Positions 23,677-34,607 of a stretch of 63,539 bases of DNA are shown here, one piece after another; the first letter of the stretch is position 1; each line of letters starts with the position of its first letter. Origin of the DNA: Opitutales bacterium (GTDB lineage Bacteria > Verrucomicrobiota > Verrucomicrobiia > Opitutales > Oceanipulchritudinaceae); contig JAFIGH010000014.1 of NCBI GenBank assembly GCA_020831525.1, positions 1 to 63,539 on the forward strand, in the 5' to 3' direction. The position numbers were made by a program, and so were the translations under genes. The notes beneath the pieces were generated by a model, which saw only the letters and a program-made list of their open reading frames with translations, did not search any database and was not told where the DNA came from.

Positions 23677-26600
23677 CTACCGTAGACCGGCTTCAAACCA
23701 TTCATCGGTTGCGGTGTCGTAGAAGCGGCGGCCGCCGCCATTGGCGTTTGCGTGGTATATCCAGCTTCGGGTCTCGGCGCGGTAGACCCACGGGTGGAGC
23801 CGTTCGGAGGTCAGGAGCCAGCCGAGGCCGCCGTCGTGGAACCATCCGCCGCCGTTGGCACCGCCGCTCCCGGCGTAGATCCAGCCGTGTTCGGCGTGGG
23901 TAACCCAGGGGAAGCTGTCGGCGGTGTAGTGGAATTCTCCGAACCAACCCGATGTGTGCCGGTCGCCGCCGTCGGGCTGCGCGCCCATCCAGCTTTGTCC
24001 GAACCGTTCCCAGTAGCGCGGGTGGTCGAGGAGGGAGGCGATGATGTCCTCAATGTCTTCGTCTGCGCGGGCGAGGGCCTCGGCGGGGGTGCCTTCAAAA
24101 GGCGGCAGGCCGTTGTCGGGATCGCCGCTCCAGAGGGTCATCCAGAGCGAGGAGACACGCACGATGTCGCGCCAATTGCTGTTTGGTGGTCCCCAGATGA
24201 TGTCCTGTCCGTTGACCATCTCACCGCGCACGAGAGCGTCGAGAAACCGGGCGCGTCCATAGGAGCGGTCGCTCAGGTTCTGGTAGATGGAGTCCTTTTG
24301 CGCCCGGAAGACCTCCATGCGGTTGAAAGCCTGGACAATCTGCTGTGGGGTGGGCGTGCTGTCGTGCCGGTTGGCCCAGAAGCGGGCGAAGATGTCGCGG
24401 TCCGGCAGATCAGCCGGGCGTCCGCCGAGCGCTTCCTCGAACTCTACGCTTCGGTGCACGCCATGGTAGGCGAGCCCGAGCAGGCCGCCGGGTTGCAAGC
24501 CCAGCGAATCGAAGAAGAGGTTGCTCGTGAAGCCGAGAAAGCCGTTCCAGCCCTGAGACTGCACGATGGTGGGTCCGCCGATGGGCGAGGCCTGGAACTG
24601 AAACATGAAAATTGGGGTACGGAAAAACTCTTCCCAATCCGGAAACCGCCGGTAGAGGTGCCAGACCATGGACTTGCCTGCACGGATCCGTTCGAACTCG
24701 GAAGAACGGAACAGCTCGGCGGCGACCTGTACCCTCGTCCGCTGGCCGTTCTCGAGGGAAGTGATGTGGCGGTTGAATTCACTTGTCGTCGGCTCCCGGT
24801 CAAACATGTCGGCATAGAGCTGGATGACGAAGTCGCGTTTGTTGACGACCGGATTGAAGACGATTTCGATCTCGGTCGGCGGCAGGGTCTCGTCCCGCAG
24901 GATGTCGTCGCGGACCTCGGCGGTGAGCACGCGCGGGCCGAGGGAGTCGAAAGATTCCTCCGTGCGGAAGGGCGGGCGCGTCCATTGGGTGGCCGGGCTG
25001 CCGTCAATGAAGAGGGTCACGTCGATCAGGGAATCGAGGTTGCCCTCGAGTTCGATCTCGATGAGAACAGACTGGCCGACGGCGAAGGTCTGGCCGGGAA
25101 GGGGCCGGACGAAGCGTCCGCGCGGGTCGGTGTTGCGTACGAGGAGGTCGAGCCTGCCGACAGAGTAACCGTCGATCTCCGCAACGACGGTGACGACGCG
25201 GTCGGGGCGGTAGACGCCGTCCTCAACCGCTTCTACCACGAAGGGGATTTCAACGGCGTCGGCGTGCACTTCAAGCGACGGGGGGACGGCGAGCAGGCCG
25301 CTTGTCGTGCTCAGCCGCAGTTCACGTGCAATACCCGCCGGGGTACTTAGCCGAGCGATGACGAGCAACTCATTGCCTTCGTCGATCATGTCGGTGTCGG
25401 CGAGAAGTTCGACACTTCGCGGAATGTCGCGGTCTTCCACGACAAGGCTGGCGCTTGCGGAGGCATAGCCGGCGGCGGAGGCGACGACCGTCACCGTTTG
25501 GTCGCCATCCATGATCCCGTCGGGCAGAGCATGGACCGTAAACGCGGCCGTGGCGAAACCGGCGGGGATCACCACCTGCGCGGGCACCTCGAGTTCGGTG
25601 GTGTCGCTGCTGACAAGAGACACCGTGACGTCGGCGTCGGGGGCGGTCGGCAAGAAGACGAGGGCTGAACCGCTTTCGCCCTCGCCGAGACGCTCGGGAA
25701 GGACAAGCGCGAGGGCGGGCGGACCGGCGGATTCGGCGGGGCGGACATCAAGCGCAGCGGCGGCGGCGACGAACGGTTCACCCTCCGCACGCAAAGACAC
25801 GGAGGTCTGCGCCGTGACGCTCCCTTCGATCACACCCACGTCAAAGGTTGTTTCGAGCCCGCTCGCCACGGTGACCGACGCCGGAACCTGAAGGATGCCC
25901 GGTGGGTCGGCGGCGAGGGTGAAGGAAACCGGATAATCCGCTGGCGGCGGAGCAGAAAGCGTGAGAGTGGCGCGCGACGCCTCCGGTCCGGCGGTGTCGA
26001 AGACGAGGACGGGATCGAGCGCGAGCGACAGTTCCGGCGGGGGATCGCTCTCGCGCACGGTCAGTTGGACGCTCGCCGGAACGAGCCGATCTCCCGATGC
26101 GGTCAGCGTGACCATGCGGTCGCCCGTGAAGACGCCATCCTGTATTGCGTTGACGGGTACCTCGGCGGAAAGGCCTTCATCGATGATGACCTTCGTCGGA
26201 ACGGCGGCGGCACCGGGATCGGATGATTCGAGCACGACGGTGACGGGATACTCGGCGGGCGCTTCCGAGAGTGTGACGGTGAGGGCCGCTGCATCGGTGC
26301 CGTCGGCCTCAAATACGGCGGCGGGTTCCACCGAGAGGGAGATTTCGGCAAGCGTGGTAGGGAGGACGGTGACGGTCGCCGTGCTCCCGGCAGCGGCGCT
26401 GCTGCGTGCCTCGATCACAACCTCGGCGGCGGTCTCAAGCGCGAGTCCGGCCACCGGTGCGATTTCGACAGTGACTGACGTCGCGCCCGACGGTATTGTT
26501 GCGGTGGCCGGAACGGTGAGAATGTCCGGAGACCGACTGCGCAGAGAGACGGGGAGCGCTTCTTCATGAGCGTTGGGTATGGAGACCGTGAGGTTTGCTT

Positions 26601-28080
26601 CGCCCGCCGCGACATCCTCGCGGAATGCTTCAGGGTCGACCGCCAGTGTGACGTTCGGTATGGGAAAGACCTCGTCACCGGCGAGGACGGTGACGCTGTC
26701 AAGCGCCCAAAGCTCGCTTGAGCTGGAGGTTGTGCCGCTGGAAATGTAGCGGAACGCAAATTGCACCGTCTCGTCCGCGAAGCGGGACAGACTGACACTT
26801 CCCGAGGCGAACCATTCATTGGTTCCGCGGCCCGGGAGCGGCGGAAGCAGTTCCGTCCATGTGGCTTCCGGCGGATCACCGCCGTCGTAGTCCGTCGATA
26901 CGAGCACGGAAATTCCTGCAAAAACGCCTTCATCAACAAACTGGGTACGGCTCCGAATGTCGATGACGGCTCCGGCGGTTCCGGTGAGGTCGACGGCAGG
27001 GGAGATGAGCCAGTCGTCGGCGGGTCCGGTGCTGCCAAAGGCATTGGCGACGGCCTGTCCGTCGGAGACGGCCCACTCCGCCTGTGCCCCTGCGGTGAAT
27101 ACAGTCCAGTCGCCAAGGGCGTAGAAGTCCTGGGAGAGCAGAACGAGCGGCGTCGCGAGCGTCGTCGTCGGCACGGGAGGGTCCGTGAGGAAGAGGATGT
27201 TCTCGGCCCGGTTGGCAAACGGATGGATTGTCGCCGTGTAGGTGGTGCCACCCTGCATGCCACTGAATTCAACATTCTCCACGCCGTGGGCGACGCGCGC
27301 CACGCCGGTCCCGGCGGATAGGTCGAGGTTGGTTTCCGGTTCGACGCCGTCGACCGGTGCGGCGGGTTCGCCGTCGGCCGCAACAAAGACATAGTATCCG
27401 TCCGGAACGGGTTCGGAAGCGGCGTCGGTCCATGACGCACGGAGGATTGTCGCGTCGGCTCCGTCCAGAGCGAATGCGGCCGGGTATTCGGAGGGCGGGG
27501 GACGCAGCAGGCTCTCGTCGAAGGCAGTGACGACAAGGTCGTCGAGATTGAAGCGCTGGTTGTCTCCGGAGGGCGGCACGGCGCGGAACCGGAGACGCAC
27601 ATTGCCGCTGCGCAGGACGCGGACCGTTGCCTCGGTGAGGGTGTTCACGTCGGCGGTGACAAAGGGCCCGCCCGCGGTCTCCCATGTGTCGCCGCCGTTG
27701 ACCGAGGATTCGACGACAAAGGCGGGCGGTTCGGCGTCGCTGCTGAAGCGCGCGTATAGAAAGCTCACTTCACCCACGCCCTCCGCGAAATCACCGAGCA
27801 TCGTCATGGAGGCAACATTGTCCGGGTTTTCAAAGCGGAAGCGGGCGGAGCGGTCGCCGTTCCTGCGGTCGCCTTCGGCTGTGCCGATGAGGACATTGTC
27901 GAGAATCCACTGCACTCCGTCGATGTCCACGGCTGCGGCGCCGTAGGTTCCCTTTATTGTATCCTCAAACCCTGTCTCGTAGATGACCTCCTTGGCGCGG
28001 GCGAGAGGCAGTGCCGTGAGGGCGGCGGCGAGTACGAGGGCGAGGGTAATTCTGTTACGCAAATGGGTGTGTGTTTTCAT
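23677..28080 (-). CDS. Giant secreted multidomain surface protein (choice-of-anchor J, Calx-beta-like repeats, DUF4214-like, W-rich C-terminus)
   Basis: A 1467-residue protein with a clear signal peptide (1-29, ending LARA). Next come a beta-sandwich (30-190, SSVNGGDTW, FNLDDLVVTAF), a linker domain, and a choice-of-anchor-J-like domain (about 320-465, ending ELWALDSVTVLAG). About five repeats of roughly 100 residues (473-983) follow, each with an LSVEPAAVFEADG-like start and a VTLTASG-like end, resembling Calx-beta or cadherin-like folds. A DUF4214-like segment (about 1078-1125, FVIQLYADMFDREPTTSEFN) and a long linker lead to a Trp/Tyr-rich C-terminal domain (1380-1467; HAEHGWIYAG, GLGWLLTSE, SWIYHANANGG). 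It starts 18 bp after the secretin stop, so it is probably the last gene of the pilus-like operon and may be an adhesin or a substrate of that system. That role is inference. Confidence 0.85.
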   Translation of the reverse strand: MKTHTHLRNRITLALVLAAALTALPLARAKEVIYETGFEDTIKGTYGAAAVDIDGVQWILDNVLIGTAEGDRRNGDRSARFRFENPDNVASMTMLGDFAEGVGEVSFLYARFSSDAEPPAFVVESSVNGGDTWETAGGPFVTADVNTLTEATVRVLRSGNVRLRFRAVPPSGDNQRFNLDDLVVTAFDESLLRPPPSEYPAAFALDGADATILRASWTDAASEPVPDGYYVFVAADGEPAAPVDGVEPETNLDLSAGTGVARVAHGVENVEFSGMQGGTTYTATIHPFANRAENILFLTDPPVPTTTLATPLVLLSQDFYALGDWTVFTAGAQAEWAVSDGQAVANAFGSTGPADDWLISPAVDLTGTAGAVIDIRSRTQFVDEGVFAGISVLVSTDYDGGDPPEATWTELLPPLPGRGTNEWFASGSVSLSRFADETVQFAFRYISSGTTSSSSELWALDSVTVLAGDEVFPIPNVTLAVDPEAFREDVAAGEANLTVSIPNAHEEALPVSLRSRSPDILTVPATATIPSGATSVTVEIAPVAGLALETAAEVVIEARSSAAAGSTATVTVLPTTLAEISLSVEPAAVFEADGTDAAALTVTLSEAPAEYPVTVVLESSDPGAAAVPTKVIIDEGLSAEVPVNAIQDGVFTGDRMVTLTASGDRLVPASVQLTVRESDPPPELSLALDPVLVFDTAGPEASRATLTLSAPPPADYPVSFTLAADPPGILQVPASVTVASGLETTFDVGVIEGSVTAQTSVSLRAEGEPFVAAAAALDVRPAESAGPPALALVLPERLGEGESGSALVFLPTAPDADVTVSLVSSDTTELEVPAQVVIPAGFATAAFTVHALPDGIMDGDQTVTVVASAAGYASASASLVVEDRDIPRSVELLADTDMIDEGNELLVIARLSTPAGIARELRLSTTSGLLAVPPSLEVHADAVEIPFVVEAVEDGVYRPDRVVTVVAEIDGYSVGRLDLLVRNTDPRGRFVRPLPGQTFAVGQSVLIEIELEGNLDSLIDVTLFIDGSPATQWTRPPFRTEESFDSLGPRVLTAEVRDDILRDETLPPTEIEIVFNPVVNKRDFVIQLYADMFDREPTTSEFNRHITSLENGQRTRVQVAAELFRSSEFERIRAGKSMVWHLYRRFPDWEEFFRTPIFMFQFQASPIGGPTIVQSQGWNGFLGFTSNLFFDSLGLQPGGLLGLAYHGVHRSVEFEEALGGRPADLPDRDIFARFWANRHDSTPTPQQIVQAFNRMEVFRAQKDSIYQNLSDRSYGRARFLDALVRGEMVNGQDIIWGPPNSNWRDIVRVSSLWMTLWSGDPDNGLPPFEGTPAEALARADEDIEDIIASLLDHPRYWERFGQSWMGAQPDGGDRHTSGWFGEFHYTADSFPWVTHAEHGWIYAGSGGANGGGWFHDGGLGWLLTSERLHPWVYRAETRSWIYHANANGGGRRFYDTATDEWFEAGLR

Positions 28081-28098: not shown

Positions 28099-30582
28099 CT
28101 ACTCGTTTTCCCGGACGCCGCGGTTTACGGCCCCGCCGGGCGTGACGATCGTCGGGTTCTGGAAGAGCGATCCCGGATCGACGGAGCTGATCTGCTGGCG
28201 TGCGGGCGAGCCGCCGGGACTGATGAGGTTGGCCGTGACGAAGATGAGGAGGTTGCGCTTCTGCGTGCTTTCACCTTGGCTGCGGAAAAGCCGGCCGAGC
28301 AGAGGAATGTCACCGAGGACCGGCACCTTGTCGTGGATGGATACGGCCTGTTCGCGGGTGAGCCCGCCCATGACAACAGTGGCGCCGTCCCAGATAGTGA
28401 CCTCGGTGCGCACGCGGCGTACGCTGAAGATGGGCTGAAAGAAGCCGCTTGGTACCGTGACGGTGGTGTTGGAGGCGATGGCCACGGAGGTTCCGCCGTA
28501 TTCGACGAATCCCTCGAACTCGGTGACACGGGGCTCGAGGAGCAGGCTGATGGCGTTGTCGTCTTCAACCGTCGGCGTGACCTCCATTTCCACGCCCACG
28601 TTTCGCACGCGGAAATTCTGCGGCGTGCCCGCTGTGATGGCGACACCGGCGGAACCGGCCTGCGAGTCGCCCCGGCCGACCTGGGCTTCGACACGGTCGT
28701 AACTGGACGGGTACAACAGCTCCTGCGCGACGGTGATCTCGGCGGTCTTGCCGGAGAGCACGGTGACTTTGGGCGCGCTCATGAGGTCGTTTCCCGTTTT
28801 GCGTTCGAGGGCGCGGATAATGAGGTCGATGTCGGCGGTGCCGATGACACCGGAGATGCGTGCGAAGTCACCCGCGCCTGCGCCGAGATCTAAATTATTG
28901 GGGATGATGGGTGCACCTTGGGGGATTGTAATCTCCCGGCCGGGAATGGCGGGTTGACCATCTTCGCCTGGTGTGTCCGGCAGGGCGATGTTGAGGGCGC
29001 TTTCGAGCCCGGCGACAGTGAAGGGATCGCTGAGGCGGCGGCCCTGCGAATCGAACTGCCGGCGGTGGCCGTGCAATTGTTGCCCGTCGGGTCCGATGAG
29101 CGGGTTGCCGGTCTGCGGGTCAAAGAGCGGAAATCCACCCATGGCGACGGACCAGTTGAAGCCGAGTTCCTCGAGGTCACCCTGCTGCACTTCAAGGAAG
29201 CGGGCTTCGATCTCGACCTGTTTCACTTCGGTGTAGCGGCGCAGGATGTTGCGCACGCGCTCCATGTTGCGGGGTGTTTGTGTGACGATGAGCTGGCCGT
29301 CGGCAAGGGCGAGGTTGGCGCCTTCGATGGTATCGAAGGGCACGCCGGCGCGTTGGAGGAAGTTGCGCAGGGCGGTCTCCTCTTCGCCCGGGGTCGCCGT
29401 CGGGGACGGTGTGGGCGGGGGGGCGAAAGGGTCGACCGGACTTGCCGGGGCTGCCGCTCCCGTGCCCGCCCCGAGGCCGGTGAGGCGGATGATTGTGGAT
29501 CGGCTGACGGGGAAGAAATCGGTTTCCAGGCGCGTGCCGGGCCCCATCCCCTGGCGCACGACGACGGCGTCGCTCTGCACGTCGTATTCGAATCCGACGG
29601 ACTCTACGATGAAGTCGAGCACGCGGTTGAGGGCGAGGTTGCGGAGCGTAATGGAGACGCGCGGATCCGCTCCGGCGGGGTCGATAAGGACCATGTTTAC
29701 ACCCGTGCCCTCGGGGTCGTAATCTTCGGAGAGGGCGGAGAGGGTGTCCATGACGCGGCTCAACGGCACACCTGCAAAGCTCACGCGGGGGAGGACGATC
29801 TCCTGGAGTTTGTCGCGCAGGCCGCGGTCTTCGACGACGGCGCGGGCCGTGAAATCGCGGTCAAACACCTGCGGACGCTGCCAGCCGCGGGAAACTTCCT
29901 CCATCATCTGCTCACGGGTCTTGAAGCGGTCGAGGTCGCCGGCTTCGCGCACACGGCGGGCGATCTGGGCTTGGAAGTACTTTGCCTCGGCGTTGTTGGG
30001 GTCGCGGGCTTCGACCTGGGCGTAGGTTTCCCGCGCGCCCTCGTAGTCGCCTGCGATGAACTGCGCGCGACCGCGGCGCAGGAGATCGGCGATCTGCTCC
30101 TGATCGCGTACGAAACCGGGACTCACTTCGTCGATATCGGGGAGATCGGTGGTTCCGCGCCGTGTTTGGGGGCGGTGCCGGGTGGAGGCGGGGCGGTCGG
30201 TTTCCGCGGCGCGGGCGCGCAGGCGCTCGCTCTCCTCCTGGACGAGCTGATCGAGGTCCGGTGGCGCGTCGCCGCTGGTGCGCGTGGGAGACGCCGCCGC
30301 CGGTGCCGGGGTCTGGAAGCGGACGGGTTCGCCGCGCTCGCGCCGGGCGATGTCGGCCCGCACGGATTCGAGGAGGGCGCGGATGTTGGTGTCGCCGGGG
30401 GCGAGGTCGGCGATTCGGGCGAGCTTTACTTCCGCCGCCTCGAGGTCGCCGGCGGAGCGAGCGCGCAGTGCCTCGGCGAGCATGGCGACGCGGTCAGGCT
30501 CGGTTTGCGCCAACGCGGCGGGATACGGCGCGAGGACGAGGAGGCAGAGGAGAATGTGGCTGAGGTAGGGTGTACGGTTCAT
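28099..30582 (-). CDS. Secretin, Amuc_1098-type pilus outer-membrane protein (PilQ/GspD superfamily)
   Basis: An 827-residue secretin with a signal peptide (1-25, ending ALAQ). A TPR-like region (about 26-190) precedes N0/N1-like domains (KLQEIVLPRVSFAGVPLSRVMDTL, VRNILRRYTEVKQVEIEARFLEV). The secretin core is at about 570-810. The signature VPVLGDIPLLGRLFRSQGE followed by KRNLLIFVTANLISPGG is diagnostic. Secretins form the outer-membrane gate for type IV pili and type II secretion. It lies 23 bp after the Amuc_1099-like gene and 18 bp before the giant surface protein. The low-complexity Pro/Ala/Thr stretch near 375-395 probably spans a linker. Confidence 0.9.
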   Translation of the reverse strand: MNRTPYLSHILLCLLVLAPYPAALAQTEPDRVAMLAEALRARSAGDLEAAEVKLARIADLAPGDTNIRALLESVRADIARRERGEPVRFQTPAPAAASPTRTSGDAPPDLDQLVQEESERLRARAAETDRPASTRHRPQTRRGTTDLPDIDEVSPGFVRDQEQIADLLRRGRAQFIAGDYEGARETYAQVEARDPNNAEAKYFQAQIARRVREAGDLDRFKTREQMMEEVSRGWQRPQVFDRDFTARAVVEDRGLRDKLQEIVLPRVSFAGVPLSRVMDTLSALSEDYDPEGTGVNMVLIDPAGADPRVSITLRNLALNRVLDFIVESVGFEYDVQSDAVVVRQGMGPGTRLETDFFPVSRSTIIRLTGLGAGTGAAAPASPVDPFAPPPTPSPTATPGEEETALRNFLQRAGVPFDTIEGANLALADGQLIVTQTPRNMERVRNILRRYTEVKQVEIEARFLEVQQGDLEELGFNWSVAMGGFPLFDPQTGNPLIGPDGQQLHGHRRQFDSQGRRLSDPFTVAGLESALNIALPDTPGEDGQPAIPGREITIPQGAPIIPNNLDLGAGAGDFARISGVIGTADIDLIIRALERKTGNDLMSAPKVTVLSGKTAEITVAQELLYPSSYDRVEAQVGRGDSQAGSAGVAITAGTPQNFRVRNVGVEMEVTPTVEDDNAISLLLEPRVTEFEGFVEYGGTSVAIASNTTVTVPSGFFQPIFSVRRVRTEVTIWDGATVVMGGLTREQAVSIHDKVPVLGDIPLLGRLFRSQGESTQKRNLLIFVTANLISPGGSPARQQISSVDPGSLFQNPTIVTPGGAVNRGVRENE

Positions 30583-30605
30583 GGGAGCAGACGGATTGGA
30601 TCGGA

Positions 30606-31424
30606 TTAAGGTTCTTCAAATGGGGACGGGTCCGGCGGGATGGAAAACCCGCGGCTCTCGGGCTCGGCGTCTCCGCGGCGGCGGGTCACGCCCACTTGTC
30701 CGGTGGCGGGGTCCATTGAATCGATGGTGTAGACGGTGGAGCCGTCCTGCCATTGTTCGCCTTCGTCGAGGGAGAGGGTATAACCGTCGCCTTCGGCAAC
30801 GAGAGTCCATGCGTCTTCATAGCGGGGCTCGCGGGAGAGGACGACGGTTTCTCCAGTGCGTTCGTCGAGGATTTCGAGGAGAATGACTTCGTCGACGTAG
30901 GCGGTGTCTCCGGCGGCGGCCCCGGGCACGCGAATGCGCTCGACGGAGAAATCGAGGATTCGGAAGTCTCCCTCGGCGATATGCTCGCCGACACGACCGC
31001 GCAGCCACGTGTCGGTCTCCTCGTCACGGATTTCGATGATGTAGCGCCCCTCCGCGCCGGCGTGGGCGGCGTATTGCAGGCGGTAGAGACCGCGCTCGAA
31101 ACGCACCGGATTGAGCGCGAAGGGAGGCGGCGGCTCGGCGCGCCGCGGGGGCGTGACGTCGAAGGCGTTGCGCTCCGGGTCGAAGTAGATGATGGGAGGG
31201 GTGAAGACTTCGAAGAGCCAGTCGGGGCCTGCTGACTGATTCGGAGGTTCATCCCATGCCGCGGGTGTCGGATCGGGAACGGCGACGGCGCGGGGTTCGG
31301 GCGGATGGACAGCGGCGGGCGGGGAGGGCAGGGGCGGCGGTGCGGCGCGCAGCAGGGCGGCGAATCCGGCGGCGAGCAGGGCGGCGGCGCCCGCGGCCAG
31401 GAATATGGCGTCGCCCCGGTTCAC
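30606..31424 (-). CDS. Amuc_1099-like pilus-system accessory protein
   Basis: A 272-residue protein with an N-terminal membrane helix (about 8-28) and a Pro-rich linker, then the family-typical DWLFEVFTPPIIYFDPERN motif near residue 70 and a beta-rich domain repeating strands to the C-terminus. I recognise it by motif and position as the Amuc_1099-like component. Its biochemical role is unknown; by location it probably sits in the periplasm, linking inner-membrane subunits to the secretin. It overlaps the upstream gene by 4 bp (ATGA). Confidence 0.75.
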   Translation of the reverse strand: MNRGDAIFLAAGAAALLAAGFAALLRAAPPPLPSPPAAVHPPEPRAVAVPDPTPAAWDEPPNQSAGPDWLFEVFTPPIIYFDPERNAFDVTPPRRAEPPPPFALNPVRFERGLYRLQYAAHAGAEGRYIIEIRDEETDTWLRGRVGEHIAEGDFRILDFSVERIRVPGAAAGDTAYVDEVILLEILDERTGETVVLSREPRYEDAWTLVAEGDGYTLSLDEGEQWQDGSTVYTIDSMDPATGQVGVTRRRGDAEPESRGFSIPPDPSPFEEP

Positions 31425-32425
31425 CGACGGTCCTCCCCGTTGGTTTCGTGACCATGAGAGATTTCAAAGTATTCAAAAGTCACGACAAACCGTGAAAGGT
31501 TGTCGCGCACAAGCGGGACGGCGGATGGAGCGGATTCGGTTGGTTCCGCTTCCGGCGCGGCGGTGCCGAATATCTCGAATGGCGTGGGGGCGCGCCCGCG
31601 GGCGGCTGTCCCGGCGTCGGTGCCGCGCTCGGTCCGATCCGCGTCAGAGGCCGCCGGTGCGACGGATACGCCGCGCACGGCGAGCGGAAACTCAAAGGAG
31701 GCGAGTGCGGCGAGAAAATCGCGCAGGGCGGCTGTGTGGCCTTCAAACGTCACCTCAAAAGCAAGCGTGTCGACAGCTCCCGGCACCCGTGCGGAGGCAA
31801 GCGGGTCGATGCGGAACAGTTCGGGCTCCCGCAGGCGCTGCGCCGCTGGTTCCAACTCCACCGACTCGCGCCGCACGAGCAGTATGGACTGCGGCTCGGC
31901 CTGCACAAGGCGGGTGAGCGTATGTTCGAGGACCTGCCGCTGGCGGTTGAGCGCAGTCATGGCCGCGGCGCGTGCGCCGTCGTCGCCGGAGTCGAAGCGG
32001 AGGCGCCCGCGTTCCACAATGTCGCGGAAGCCGAAGCGGGCGTCCTCGGGCACGCGGATGCGGCCATCCGCGCACTTTGCCGCCATGCGCTCGGTGAAGT
32101 CGGCGAGTTCGAAAAACACCTCCTCCGGACCGCGGTAGTCCGGGGCGGGCTCCAGTCCGCGTTCCGAGGCAAGGGCGCGGCGGATGTCGCCGCGGAGGGC
32201 ATGCAAACGCCGGACTTCGCCTTCAAGGGCACGCACGGAGGCCTCGGTCGGACTCGGCCGGGCGGTCTGCACGGCTTCGAGCGAGCGGGCGGTCAGGGCC
32301 GCTCGGCGCAACGTTTCCCGGTTTTCCGCCTGCTGCGAAAATCCGAGTACCGCCAGCACGCCCGCGCCGACGAACGGCAGCGCGACGAGGGTCCAGAACA
32401 ATGGTTGGCGGGAGAGAGAGCGCAT
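31421..32425 (-). CDS. Amuc_1100-like pilus-system protein (PilO-like)
   Basis: A 334-residue protein: one N-terminal membrane helix (9-28, FWTLVALPFVGAGVLAVLGF), a helical/coiled-coil region (about 30-180), and a periplasmic beta-alpha domain ending in DNLSRFVVTFEYFEISH, a hallmark of the Amuc_1100 family. A segment TLAFEVTFEGHTAALRDFLAALASFEFPLAVRGVSV resembles PilO/GspM-type ferredoxin-like folds. In Akkermansia the homologue is an abundant envelope protein with host immunomodulatory activity. No such activity can be inferred here. It lies 2 bp downstream of the PilM-like gene. Confidence 0.8.
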   Translation of the reverse strand: MRSLSRQPLFWTLVALPFVGAGVLAVLGFSQQAENRETLRRAALTARSLEAVQTARPSPTEASVRALEGEVRRLHALRGDIRRALASERGLEPAPDYRGPEEVFFELADFTERMAAKCADGRIRVPEDARFGFRDIVERGRLRFDSGDDGARAAAMTALNRQRQVLEHTLTRLVQAEPQSILLVRRESVELEPAAQRLREPELFRIDPLASARVPGAVDTLAFEVTFEGHTAALRDFLAALASFEFPLAVRGVSVAPAASDADRTERGTDAGTAARGRAPTPFEIFGTAAPEAEPTESAPSAVPLVRDNLSRFVVTFEYFEISHGHETNGEDRR

Positions 32426-32427
32426 TC

Positions 32428-33960
32428 TCAGAGGGGACGTTCCGGGTCCGTCACGAGGGTGAACTCGAAGCGCAGGATACCGGGCTGCGATGTATCAAAG
32501 CGGCGTTCTCCGATGGTTGAGACAAACTCCGAGAGCGTGAATCCGTCGATGAGGGCGCCAACTCGCGTGCGCATGTCGGGACTTGCCCGGCTGAGCGGGT
32601 TCTCACGGTCGAGCATGCGGCCGGTGAGTTTCAGCTCGACCGACAGTCGCGGTGGCGGGAGGGGCTCCTCCTCGTAGTGAAATTCTTCTGGTCCGGCGGC
32701 GGGCGCCGGAATGCGGCGGACCTCGAGTCCGTCGATCCAAACGTCTTCTACGGCGAGGAGGCGGTTTTGCAAATCTGCGAAGAAGCGCAGCCAGTTGCTC
32801 CGCCCTTCGGCGAGCGCGCCGATGTCGCGCAACTCTGCGGCCAATGCGTCGGCCTCGTCGCTGATCGTGCGCACTTTTGCATCGAGGGTGTAGACGGGGG
32901 TGCCGGCTTCACGCAGATCGGCTAGGTACGCAGCCAGTTGCCGCCCTTTCTGCCACTCGCCCGCATAGAATACCGCTGCCGCCGCGAGAAACAGGCAGGC
33001 CGCGAGGGCGAGCGCGGGCATACGGCGGCGCAGGGCGCGGGCCTCGCGCAGGCAACCGGGCAGCAGGTCAAACCGCAACATGCCCGGTGCACCGCTGTCG
33101 GCCACGGCGCCCAGCATGACCGCATGTGTGCCGTCGCCCGTTTCCGCGCGCAGCGGTTCAACGCTCATGCCGAGGTACGCGCCGAGGAGCGCGGGAAGGT
33201 CAGAGTCGCTGTCCAGCGCCGAACCGGTGACCAGCGCATGGTCTGGATCGTAGTCCTTGTTCTGCCGCTTCTGTGCTGTGAGGGAGCGCGCCACTTCACC
33301 GCCGAGGCGGCGCACGAACGTCTCCGGGTCCGCTCCCGCCGATTCGTGTCCGAAAGCCGCTGTGCGTAGGGCAAAATGTTCTCCGCCCATGAACACAAGG
33401 TGGGTCGTCCGGTGTCCGGCGTCGATCAACACCCGGTCGTCGCCACCGCCCTCCGTCGCGCGTGCGGCGTTGACCATGCAGGCGGGGAGCGCGGCAATCT
33501 CCGCCACGGAAAGGCCTGCCGACCGCAGGGCGTCGACGATGGCTTCCGGCCATTCCCGCCGCACCGCCACGAGTGCCACACGGCGTTCGAGTCCGTCGTC
33601 ACCGACCACGGCATGGTCCCAGATAACCTCCTCAAGCGGATAGGGTATCGCTTGGCGCACCTCGTGCCGGAGGGTTTCGGCGGCCTTCGCGGCGGCGACG
33701 CGCGGGACTTCCACCACTTTAGCGAGAAGCGGCATGGGCGCGCAGACCACGGTCAGCGGCACATTCCGCAGGGGTGCCGGGTCGAGGCGGGCGAGCGCGG
33801 TCGCCATGGCACCGGCATACGCGTGTGGGTCTTCCGTGTCGGCCGCGATCTCCGTAGTGGAGAAGATGTCGACGCGGGGCAGCGCGGAAGACGTGTCGTA
33901 GCGGGCGTAGGCAACATGCCCGGTGCCCGCGTAGAGGATGTCCCGCTGCCGGGCGCTCAC
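32428..33960 (-). CDS. PilM-PilN-like fusion, Amuc_1101-type
   Basis: A 510-residue protein. The first about 280 residues are an actin-like PilM domain (AAETLRHEVRQAIPYPLEEVIWD near 100, VLIDAGHRTTHLVFMGG near 180, ALVTGSALDSDSDLPALLGAYLG near 240). A short loop leads to a membrane helix (about 318-336, LALAACLFLAAAAVFYAGEW). A PilN-like periplasmic coiled-coil/ferredoxin-fold region follows (340-510, WLRFFADLQNRLLAVEDVWIDGLEV). In classical type IV pili PilM and PilN are separate, so the fusion is notable. It overlaps the upstream gene by 4 bp. The stop is 2 bp before the Amuc_1100-like start. Confidence 0.85.
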   Translation of the reverse strand: MSARQRDILYAGTGHVAYARYDTSSALPRVDIFSTTEIAADTEDPHAYAGAMATALARLDPAPLRNVPLTVVCAPMPLLAKVVEVPRVAAAKAAETLRHEVRQAIPYPLEEVIWDHAVVGDDGLERRVALVAVRREWPEAIVDALRSAGLSVAEIAALPACMVNAARATEGGGDDRVLIDAGHRTTHLVFMGGEHFALRTAAFGHESAGADPETFVRRLGGEVARSLTAQKRQNKDYDPDHALVTGSALDSDSDLPALLGAYLGMSVEPLRAETGDGTHAVMLGAVADSGAPGMLRFDLLPGCLREARALRRRMPALALAACLFLAAAAVFYAGEWQKGRQLAAYLADLREAGTPVYTLDAKVRTISDEADALAAELRDIGALAEGRSNWLRFFADLQNRLLAVEDVWIDGLEVRRIPAPAAGPEEFHYEEEPLPPPRLSVELKLTGRMLDRENPLSRASPDMRTRVGALIDGFTLSEFVSTIGERRFDTSQPGILRFEFTLVTDPERPL

Positions 33961-34607
33961 GGCTCACCCTCCCGGCTGGCGGCGGACGTCGGCTCATGGC
34001 GGATGAACGACGGCAAGTCACGGAAGCGACCGGACTCCCGCTGGTAGAACGGGGTCAGGTAAATAGGTAGCAGCACACCGTCGTTCTTCGGCGCGTCCTC
34101 CGTGATCCGCCGAAGGAAGCTCTGCGCCGCCTGCGGCTCCCCGAGAGTGCGCGAGTACTGCTCCGGCGCGTTCGGCAGGGGCTGCCCGTCGACGGCGAGG
34201 GCGACGCGCCATGCATACGGCTCGCGCTCCAGACGGTCGCGGTCGACCACCTCCGGCGGCAGGTAGAAATACACGAAGGCACGTTGGTTCTGCGCAAGAG
34301 CGGCGATCTTCGCGCGCGAGCGGTAGAACTCGTACCGGCCCCCTGCCGGATCGCCCACGGCATACGCGGCTTGGAAAACCACCTCGAGCCGCGAGTTAAA
34401 GCGCGCCGCGTGTCCCTCGCCGCCTTCAATGGAGGGGCCGCCCCGCAACTCCACGGCGGCTTCCAGCCAATGCCCGTCCACTCCGGGGGCGCGGTCGCGC
34501 GCGAAGCGCACGTTCTGCACGGTTACGGGCTGCGCCGCCGCGGCAACAGTCCCGGCGAACACAAGCGCAAGGCACACGAGGGTACGTCCACATCCAGTGA
34601 AAACCAT
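33957..34607 (-). CDS. Amuc_1102-like secreted pilus-system protein
   Basis: A 216-residue protein with a signal peptide (about 1-25, ending AAAA). A beta-rich domain follows (VQNVRFARDRAPGVDGHWLEAAVELRG, RFNSRLEVVFQAAYAV, FVYFYLPPEVVDRDRL), and a polar tail ends it. In Akkermansia the counterpart has an immunoglobulin-like fold. It is the first gene of the operon by position; 34608 onwards is the probable promoter region. Assignment rests on position and strand pattern more than on a single motif. Confidence 0.65.
   Translation of the reverse strand: MVFTGCGRTLVCLALVFAGTVAAAAQPVTVQNVRFARDRAPGVDGHWLEAAVELRGGPSIEGGEGHAARFNSRLEVVFQAAYAVGDPAGGRYEFYRSRAKIAALAQNQRAFVYFYLPPEVVDRDRLEREPYAWRVALAVDGQPLPNAPEQYSRTLGEPQAAQSFLRRITEDAPKNDGVLLPIYLTPFYQRESGRFRDLPSFIRHEPTSAASREGEP

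Follow-up and report, generated by a model that had tools for sequence, protein, structure and literature searches.

The stretch of DNA considered here (the window) comprises 63,539 nucleotides of contig JAFIGH010000014.1 from an Opitutales bacterium (assembly GCA_020831525.1). On its minus strand lies a pilM(N)-O-P-Q operon in the classical order, with a gene resembling Amuc_1102 of Akkermansia muciniphila in front. The first gene (33957..34607) encodes an Amuc_1102-like secreted protein of 216 amino acids that is putatively Ig-like. It is followed by genes for a PilM-PilN fusion of 510 amino acids (Amuc_1101-like; 32428..33960), a PilO-like protein of 334 amino acids (Amuc_1100-like; 31421..32425), a PilP-like protein of 272 amino acids (Amuc_1099-like; 30606..31424) and an outer-membrane secretin of 827 amino acids with a TPR-containing N-terminal part (Amuc_1098/PilQ-like; 28099..30582). 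The successive junctions are a 4-bp overlap, a 2-bp gap, a 4-bp overlap and a 23-bp gap. An earlier note, made from the sequence alone, had described these five contiguous genes, and the frame list agrees with it in positions and junctions. That note closed the operon at 28099 and overlooked a sixth gene on the same strand (23677..28080), which starts 18 bp past the stop codon of the secretin and encodes a giant secreted protein of 1467 amino acids. Gene calls were taken as the longest frames; shadow frames are frequent in this GC-rich DNA, and neighbours were judged mainly by profile matches.

Three of the five proteins were recognized directly. Gene 5 matches the Pfam Secretin family (E-value 3e-35) and scores 382 bits against the NCBIfam model of the Amuc_1098 family (NF042912, cut-off 750). 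Gene 2 scores 134 bits against the Amuc_1101 family (NF045709, E-value 8e-39, cut-off 650) and also matches pilM (TIGR01175, E-value 5e-9). Its proposed nature as a PilM-PilN fusion was supported by profile comparison with solved structures: the first part matched PilM of Myxococcus xanthus (3jc8, E-value 7e-44) and of Thermus, and the second part matched PilN (3jc8_N, E-value 1e-6). An FDLLPG motif ahead of the membrane helix is similar to the INLLP motif of PilN. Gene 3 scores 69 bits against the Amuc_1100 family (NF038287, E-value 5e-19, cut-off 180), and its profile matched the solved Amuc_1100 structures 6lad and 6kny (E-value 8e-8). The comparison with the Amuc families that the earlier note had proposed thus places genes 2, 3 and 5 well above chance and all of them under the equivalog cut-offs. 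Taken singly, genes 1 and 4 had no relevant match in NCBIfam. When their aligned orthologues were searched, 4 of 21 orthologues of gene 1 matched the Amuc_1102 family (NF042424, best E-value 7e-5) and 4 of 19 orthologues of gene 4 matched the Amuc_1099 family (NF042425, best E-value 4e-5). The Ig-family profile of gene 1 gave no convincing match by sequence to solved structures. A structure of Amuc_1102 exists (7DSZ; PMC13174399), and divergence is the likely reason why it was missed.

The earlier note had called the product of gene 4 a membrane-anchored accessory protein. A membrane helix is indeed predicted, and a more specific assignment can now be offered. The model of gene 4 (pLDDT 84.5) consists of one membrane helix, a linker and a C-terminal beta domain. 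When this model was compared with 996 chains using VIA-align, the first four rows were all PilP (2ivw, Z 7.2; 2lc4, 7.1; 3jc8_P, 7.1; 4av2_M, 6.7), and the next row was an unrelated protein with a Z-score of 5.9. Scores of 6.7-7.2 lie under 8 and call for care, and Foldseek alone returned no significant match for the model. Because four PilP entries top the fold list and the gene is positioned between pilO and pilQ, gene 4 is best read as a predicted PilP. With PilP assigned by fold (Z about 7) and gene order, the set of PilM, N, O, P and Q in the operon is complete.

The relationship to the Akkermansia locus can be judged against an Akkermansia-type locus (L259) that passes all five NCBIfam cut-offs and has the identical gene order. 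By this yardstick, the sub-cut-off scores indicate at the sequence level that the operon of the window is homologous to the Akkermansia locus but has diverged from it, and that its proteins are not equivalogs by the NCBIfam standard. The similarity to Amuc_1102-Amuc_1098 (of which Amuc_1099-1102 are known as MUL2) extends to the five genes, their order, the PilM-PilN fusion, the Amuc_1100-like PilO and the Amuc_1098-like secretin with a TPR N-terminus. The order Ig-PilMN-PilO-PilP-secretin was found again in relatives, so the homology and gene order claimed in the earlier note are well founded. The operon also resembles the pilM-N-O-P-Q operons of type IVa pili in Myxococcus, Thermus, Pseudomonas and Neisseria in its order and domains, in the PilM and PilN matches to 3jc8 and in the PilP fold. 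It differs from them in that PilM and PilN form a single protein, a gene resembling Amuc_1102 stands ahead, the secretin carries TPRs, and pilins and motors are encoded elsewhere; its PilP shows no obvious lipobox and carries a membrane helix instead.

This type of locus is a core feature of the phylum. The PilM-PilN family is present in 359 of 388 Verrucomicrobiota genomes, with a strong match in 148 of the 223 genomes examined from the order. Named matches are from Verrucomicrobiota, chiefly Opitutia, Opitutales and Puniceicoccaceae, and include many environmental genomes. A 2016 publication gave Amuc_1098 the name PilQ and pointed to homologues in other Verrucomicrobia (PMC4960237). For aquatic Akkermansiaceae, a 2026 publication described conserved synteny of amuc_1099-1102 (PMC13174399). 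Given the phylum-wide locus and this published synteny, its occurrence in a probably non-gut organism is to be expected. The distribution gives partial support to the role outside hosts suggested in the earlier note, and this idea is not new. Taken by itself, the operon is a typical representative of a known family that spans the phylum; the assignment of PilP, the assignment of a motor and the family of secretin-linked giants go beyond the literature that could be searched. In the course of this survey, three public metagenome-assembled genomes titled 'Akkermansia muciniphila' (L238, L246 and L248; CAMDHP010000036, CAMCZZ010000004 and CAMCHD010000253) were found to carry an Opitutales-like PilM-PilN, and their titles are probably wrong.

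No pilin-like frame was found in the window, and the components absent from the operon were found on other contigs, as the earlier note had allowed. Ten T2SSE matches (one under the family cut-off) and three PilC-like proteins were found in the genome, and a PilB-PilT-PilB-PilC cluster lies at C110:89145-94366. A tandem PilB pair, defined as two same-strand T2SSE matches, each scoring 400 bits or more, in a span of about 3.5 kb, was present in all 18 assessable operon-positive genomes and in none of 22 operon-negative genomes. The 41 genomes of this test, which include one further operon-positive genome cut by a contig end, were hand-picked and related, so the counts overstate independence. 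Presence and absence of the operon and the tandem pair contrast within families f1, f5, f8 and f14, and PilC adjoins the pair in most genomes. The genes coaE and rho provide a second, independent hint tying the motor to the operon, as a neighbour common to both. In 14 of 16 regions from other families, coaE-rho follows the operon's secretin (once rho alone, and in some cases 2-3 kb further on), and in several Opitutales it is the motor cluster, and not the operon, that adjoins coaE-rho, lying directly downstream. The identity of CoaE and Rho was checked against Pfam for examples taken from each neighbourhood. In the window, and in contrast to the Akkermansia locus, the operon is followed by the giant and not by coaE-rho.

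Type IV pilins are likewise encoded elsewhere. Sixteen N_methyl frames were found in the genome, including a major-pilin-like gene (C48), a GspG-like gene (C176) and two PilV/W/X-like sets (C174 and C178). The genome has three secretins. One belongs to a second, classical operon on contig C114 with separate pilM, N, O, P and Q (L043 5515-10280; L072 268-10044), a type found in 87 of the 223 genomes. This operon resembles that of the window in gene order and in the giant behind its secretin. It differs in its separate PilM and PilN, in lacking an Amuc_1102 gene, in its own distribution and in its PilQ/GspD-like secretin, which scores 122 bits to Amuc_1098. About 50 bp further on lies the gene for its giant, a protein of 3258 amino acids with BNR-type propellers that shares with gene 6 the module and the C-terminal domain at its end. 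The third secretin is GspD-like, lies near GspH/I-like pseudopilins (C150) and is separate from the window operon; a GspE-F pair is also present in the genome. The window operon itself lacks the combination of a GspD-type secretin with GspH-K pseudopilins that characterizes type II systems. Two further loci were observed. A five-pilin cluster (C143:1930-4417; L155-L178) with a PilC-like gene on the same contig is apparently a further pilin-type system without a nearby secretin. A protein of 881 amino acids with a PilM-like domain (L156 7253-9898, on C118), which measures 600-940 amino acids in many relatives, is possibly a type II component of the GspL/PilM type.

Gene 6 combines a signal-peptide-like start, a choice-of-anchor J domain, repeated beta domains, an Ig-DUF4214 module (approximately residues 985-1165; 24586..25128, minus strand) and a Trp/Tyr-rich C-terminal beta domain of about 85 amino acids (23695..23958, minus strand). 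No terminator-like site was found between the secretin and gene 6, in a scan that is a weak test. Equivalents occupy the same position in G001 and G002, where the contigs end inside the gene, and in G006. Among loci with enough DNA, a frame of at least 900 amino acids beginning within 260 bp after the secretin was found in 17 of 60 window-type loci and at none of 92 on the upstream side (p 3e-8, a value that ignores relatedness). Bacterial Ig domains, PD40 or BNR propellers and DUF4214 were recognized in the related giants, whose heads differ widely between lineages. PilY1 tip adhesins are very large secreted proteins with a variable head that are genetically tied to a pilus system. The giant of the window shares these properties, including linkage to a pilus operon, and some related giants have beta-propellers (PD40, BNR). 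It differs from PilY1 in its conserved module and in its location behind the secretin and not among minor pilins, and Pfam and NCBIfam scans did not find the C-terminal beta-propeller domain of PilY1 in gene 6. In six Puniceicoccaceae-like loci (L194, L196, L200, L201, L202 and L214), another large, membrane-anchored family stands behind the secretin; it exceeds 1000 amino acids in five of them, and the one member scanned had no Pfam match.

The Ig-DUF4214 module links the giants of both pilus operons. A profile was built only from giants behind window-type secretins in families f1, f21 and f24, and was searched against 5,279 frames from the collected loci at an E-value threshold below 1e-4. 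All matches shared the strand of a secretin and lay downstream of it; this set of frames is enriched for secretin neighbourhoods, so the exclusivity of the module may be overstated. The distance to the secretin was mostly 12-342 bp, with one overlap at a contig edge and 1.4-4.7 kb in three f24 loci. The module occurs in giants of at least five families. The profile also picked up the giant of the second operon, which was absent from the training set, and matched none of 28 other proteins of the genome that share only the C-terminal domain. Second-type secretins are followed by giants in several relatives as well (L137-L141 and L151), with an RCC1-like N-terminus. Several giants behind such secretins have a common 'RITVRD' C-terminal stretch in place of the Ig-DUF4214 module.

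The C-terminal domain has a wider distribution. It ends about 50 proteins of the genome (e.g., L075-L104) with the motif SxWxGxF...PWxYHxxHGWL...LGWxWT...YP, and it is present in 68 of the 223 genomes of the order. Its model has nine strands (pLDDT 90). No convincing relative by sequence was found in Pfam or PDB, and Foldseek gave no significant match, which is not proof of a new fold. The domain is linked to window-type secretins in families f1, f21 and f24, and in two f24 genomes (G056 and G039) the sole gene found to encode it lies 4.5-4.7 kb behind such a secretin. Across genomes, the window-type operon was present in 46 of the 68 genomes with the domain and in 102 of the 155 without it (p 0.88). 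A weak association with the second operon (p 0.001) is confounded by family. The proposal that the domain is a tag exported only via the secretin of this operon was rejected on the basis of this comparison and of about ten f1 relatives that have many domain proteins and no operon. Since the domain shows no dependence on the operon among the 223 genomes, a general surface domain describes it better than a tag of this gate, and, with regard to this operon, it differs from C-terminal sorting domains such as MYXO-CTERM and those of type IX secretion.

We consider it probable that the operon codes for the alignment and gate unit of a type IV pilus machine, the part that spans the envelope, and that gene 6 encodes a surface protein exported or displayed by it. 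PilM-PilN, PilO and PilP would build an inner-membrane and periplasmic frame that docks on the secretin. A pilin filament would then be extended and retracted through the secretin, driven by the PilB-PilT-PilB-PilC motor of C110. The giant, with its variable adhesin-like head, Ig-DUF4214 module and C-terminal beta domain, would be exported or displayed by this machine as a PilY1-like part. We infer the assembly of these components into one machine, the identity of the filament, and the export and adhesive role of gene 6, whether as adhesin or as cargo. Several observations weigh against this reading, in addition to the cautions given above for the PilP match and the motor counts. The motor and the operon are on separate contigs here, and the link between them consists of correlation and a shared neighbour. 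Several f1 genomes without the operon have a diverged ATPase-PilT-ATPase cluster; these clusters perhaps serve the other system, and motors may be shared or swapped between systems. In G007, G010, G012, G015 and G016, which have no window-type operon, the divergence of such a cluster is strong (about 210-340 bits versus more than 400). None of the 16 N_methyl frames could be tied to the window operon rather than to the second operon. Finally, in 43 of the 60 operons of the order the secretin is not directly followed by a giant.

The same observations bear on other explanations. The operon could be the gate of a type II-like exporter that mainly serves the giant, perhaps along with other proteins bearing the C-terminal domain, and whose filament, if any, is only a short pseudopilus. 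Giants follow the secretin immediately in several lineages, about 50 proteins share an ending that resembles a sorting tag, and the two f24 genomes with a single domain protein behind the secretin fit this explanation as well. We regard it as unlikely because PilT belongs to the motor, implying retraction and hence a pilus and not a plain type II exporter, and because a separate GspD-like locus with pseudopilins and a GspE-F pair already exists in the genome; the C-terminal domain also fails to track the operon. Still less probable is that the giant is an independent surface protein that takes no physical part in the machine and lies behind secretins through chance or for the sake of co-expression. 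The operons without a giant and the wide differences between heads would agree with such an arrangement, whereas the empty upstream control and the presence of the Ig-DUF4214 module only in secretin-downstream giants, across families and both secretin systems of the locus set, speak for a connection. The suggestion in the earlier note that the locus might make something other than a classical pilus did not hold up. A pilin-free structure would agree with an operon that has neither pilin nor ATPase, and it is made very improbable by the type IV pilins, minor-pilin clusters, PilC, PilB and PilT in the genome and by the tandem motor that tracks the operon. The type IV pilus machine thus remains the preferred explanation. 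A bolder extension of it, which we put forward tentatively and consider rather doubtful, is that the secretin gates of both pilus systems in Opitutales display giants with exchangeable heads, that the Ig-DUF4214 module docks the giant, and that the C-terminal domain is an unrecognised surface-sorting or anchoring domain.

Work on the Akkermansia locus has centred on Amuc_1100 and on how this protein affects the host. In the present analysis, the locus is recognized as the pilM-N-O-P-Q alignment unit in what is probably a phylum-wide pilus machine, and candidate motor genes are named. The uncharacterised Amuc_1099 family gains a testable role as PilP. The family of giants tied to secretins and the uncatalogued C-terminal domain, with about 50 proteins in one genome, provide candidates for the surface-exposed proteins of these environmental bacteria.

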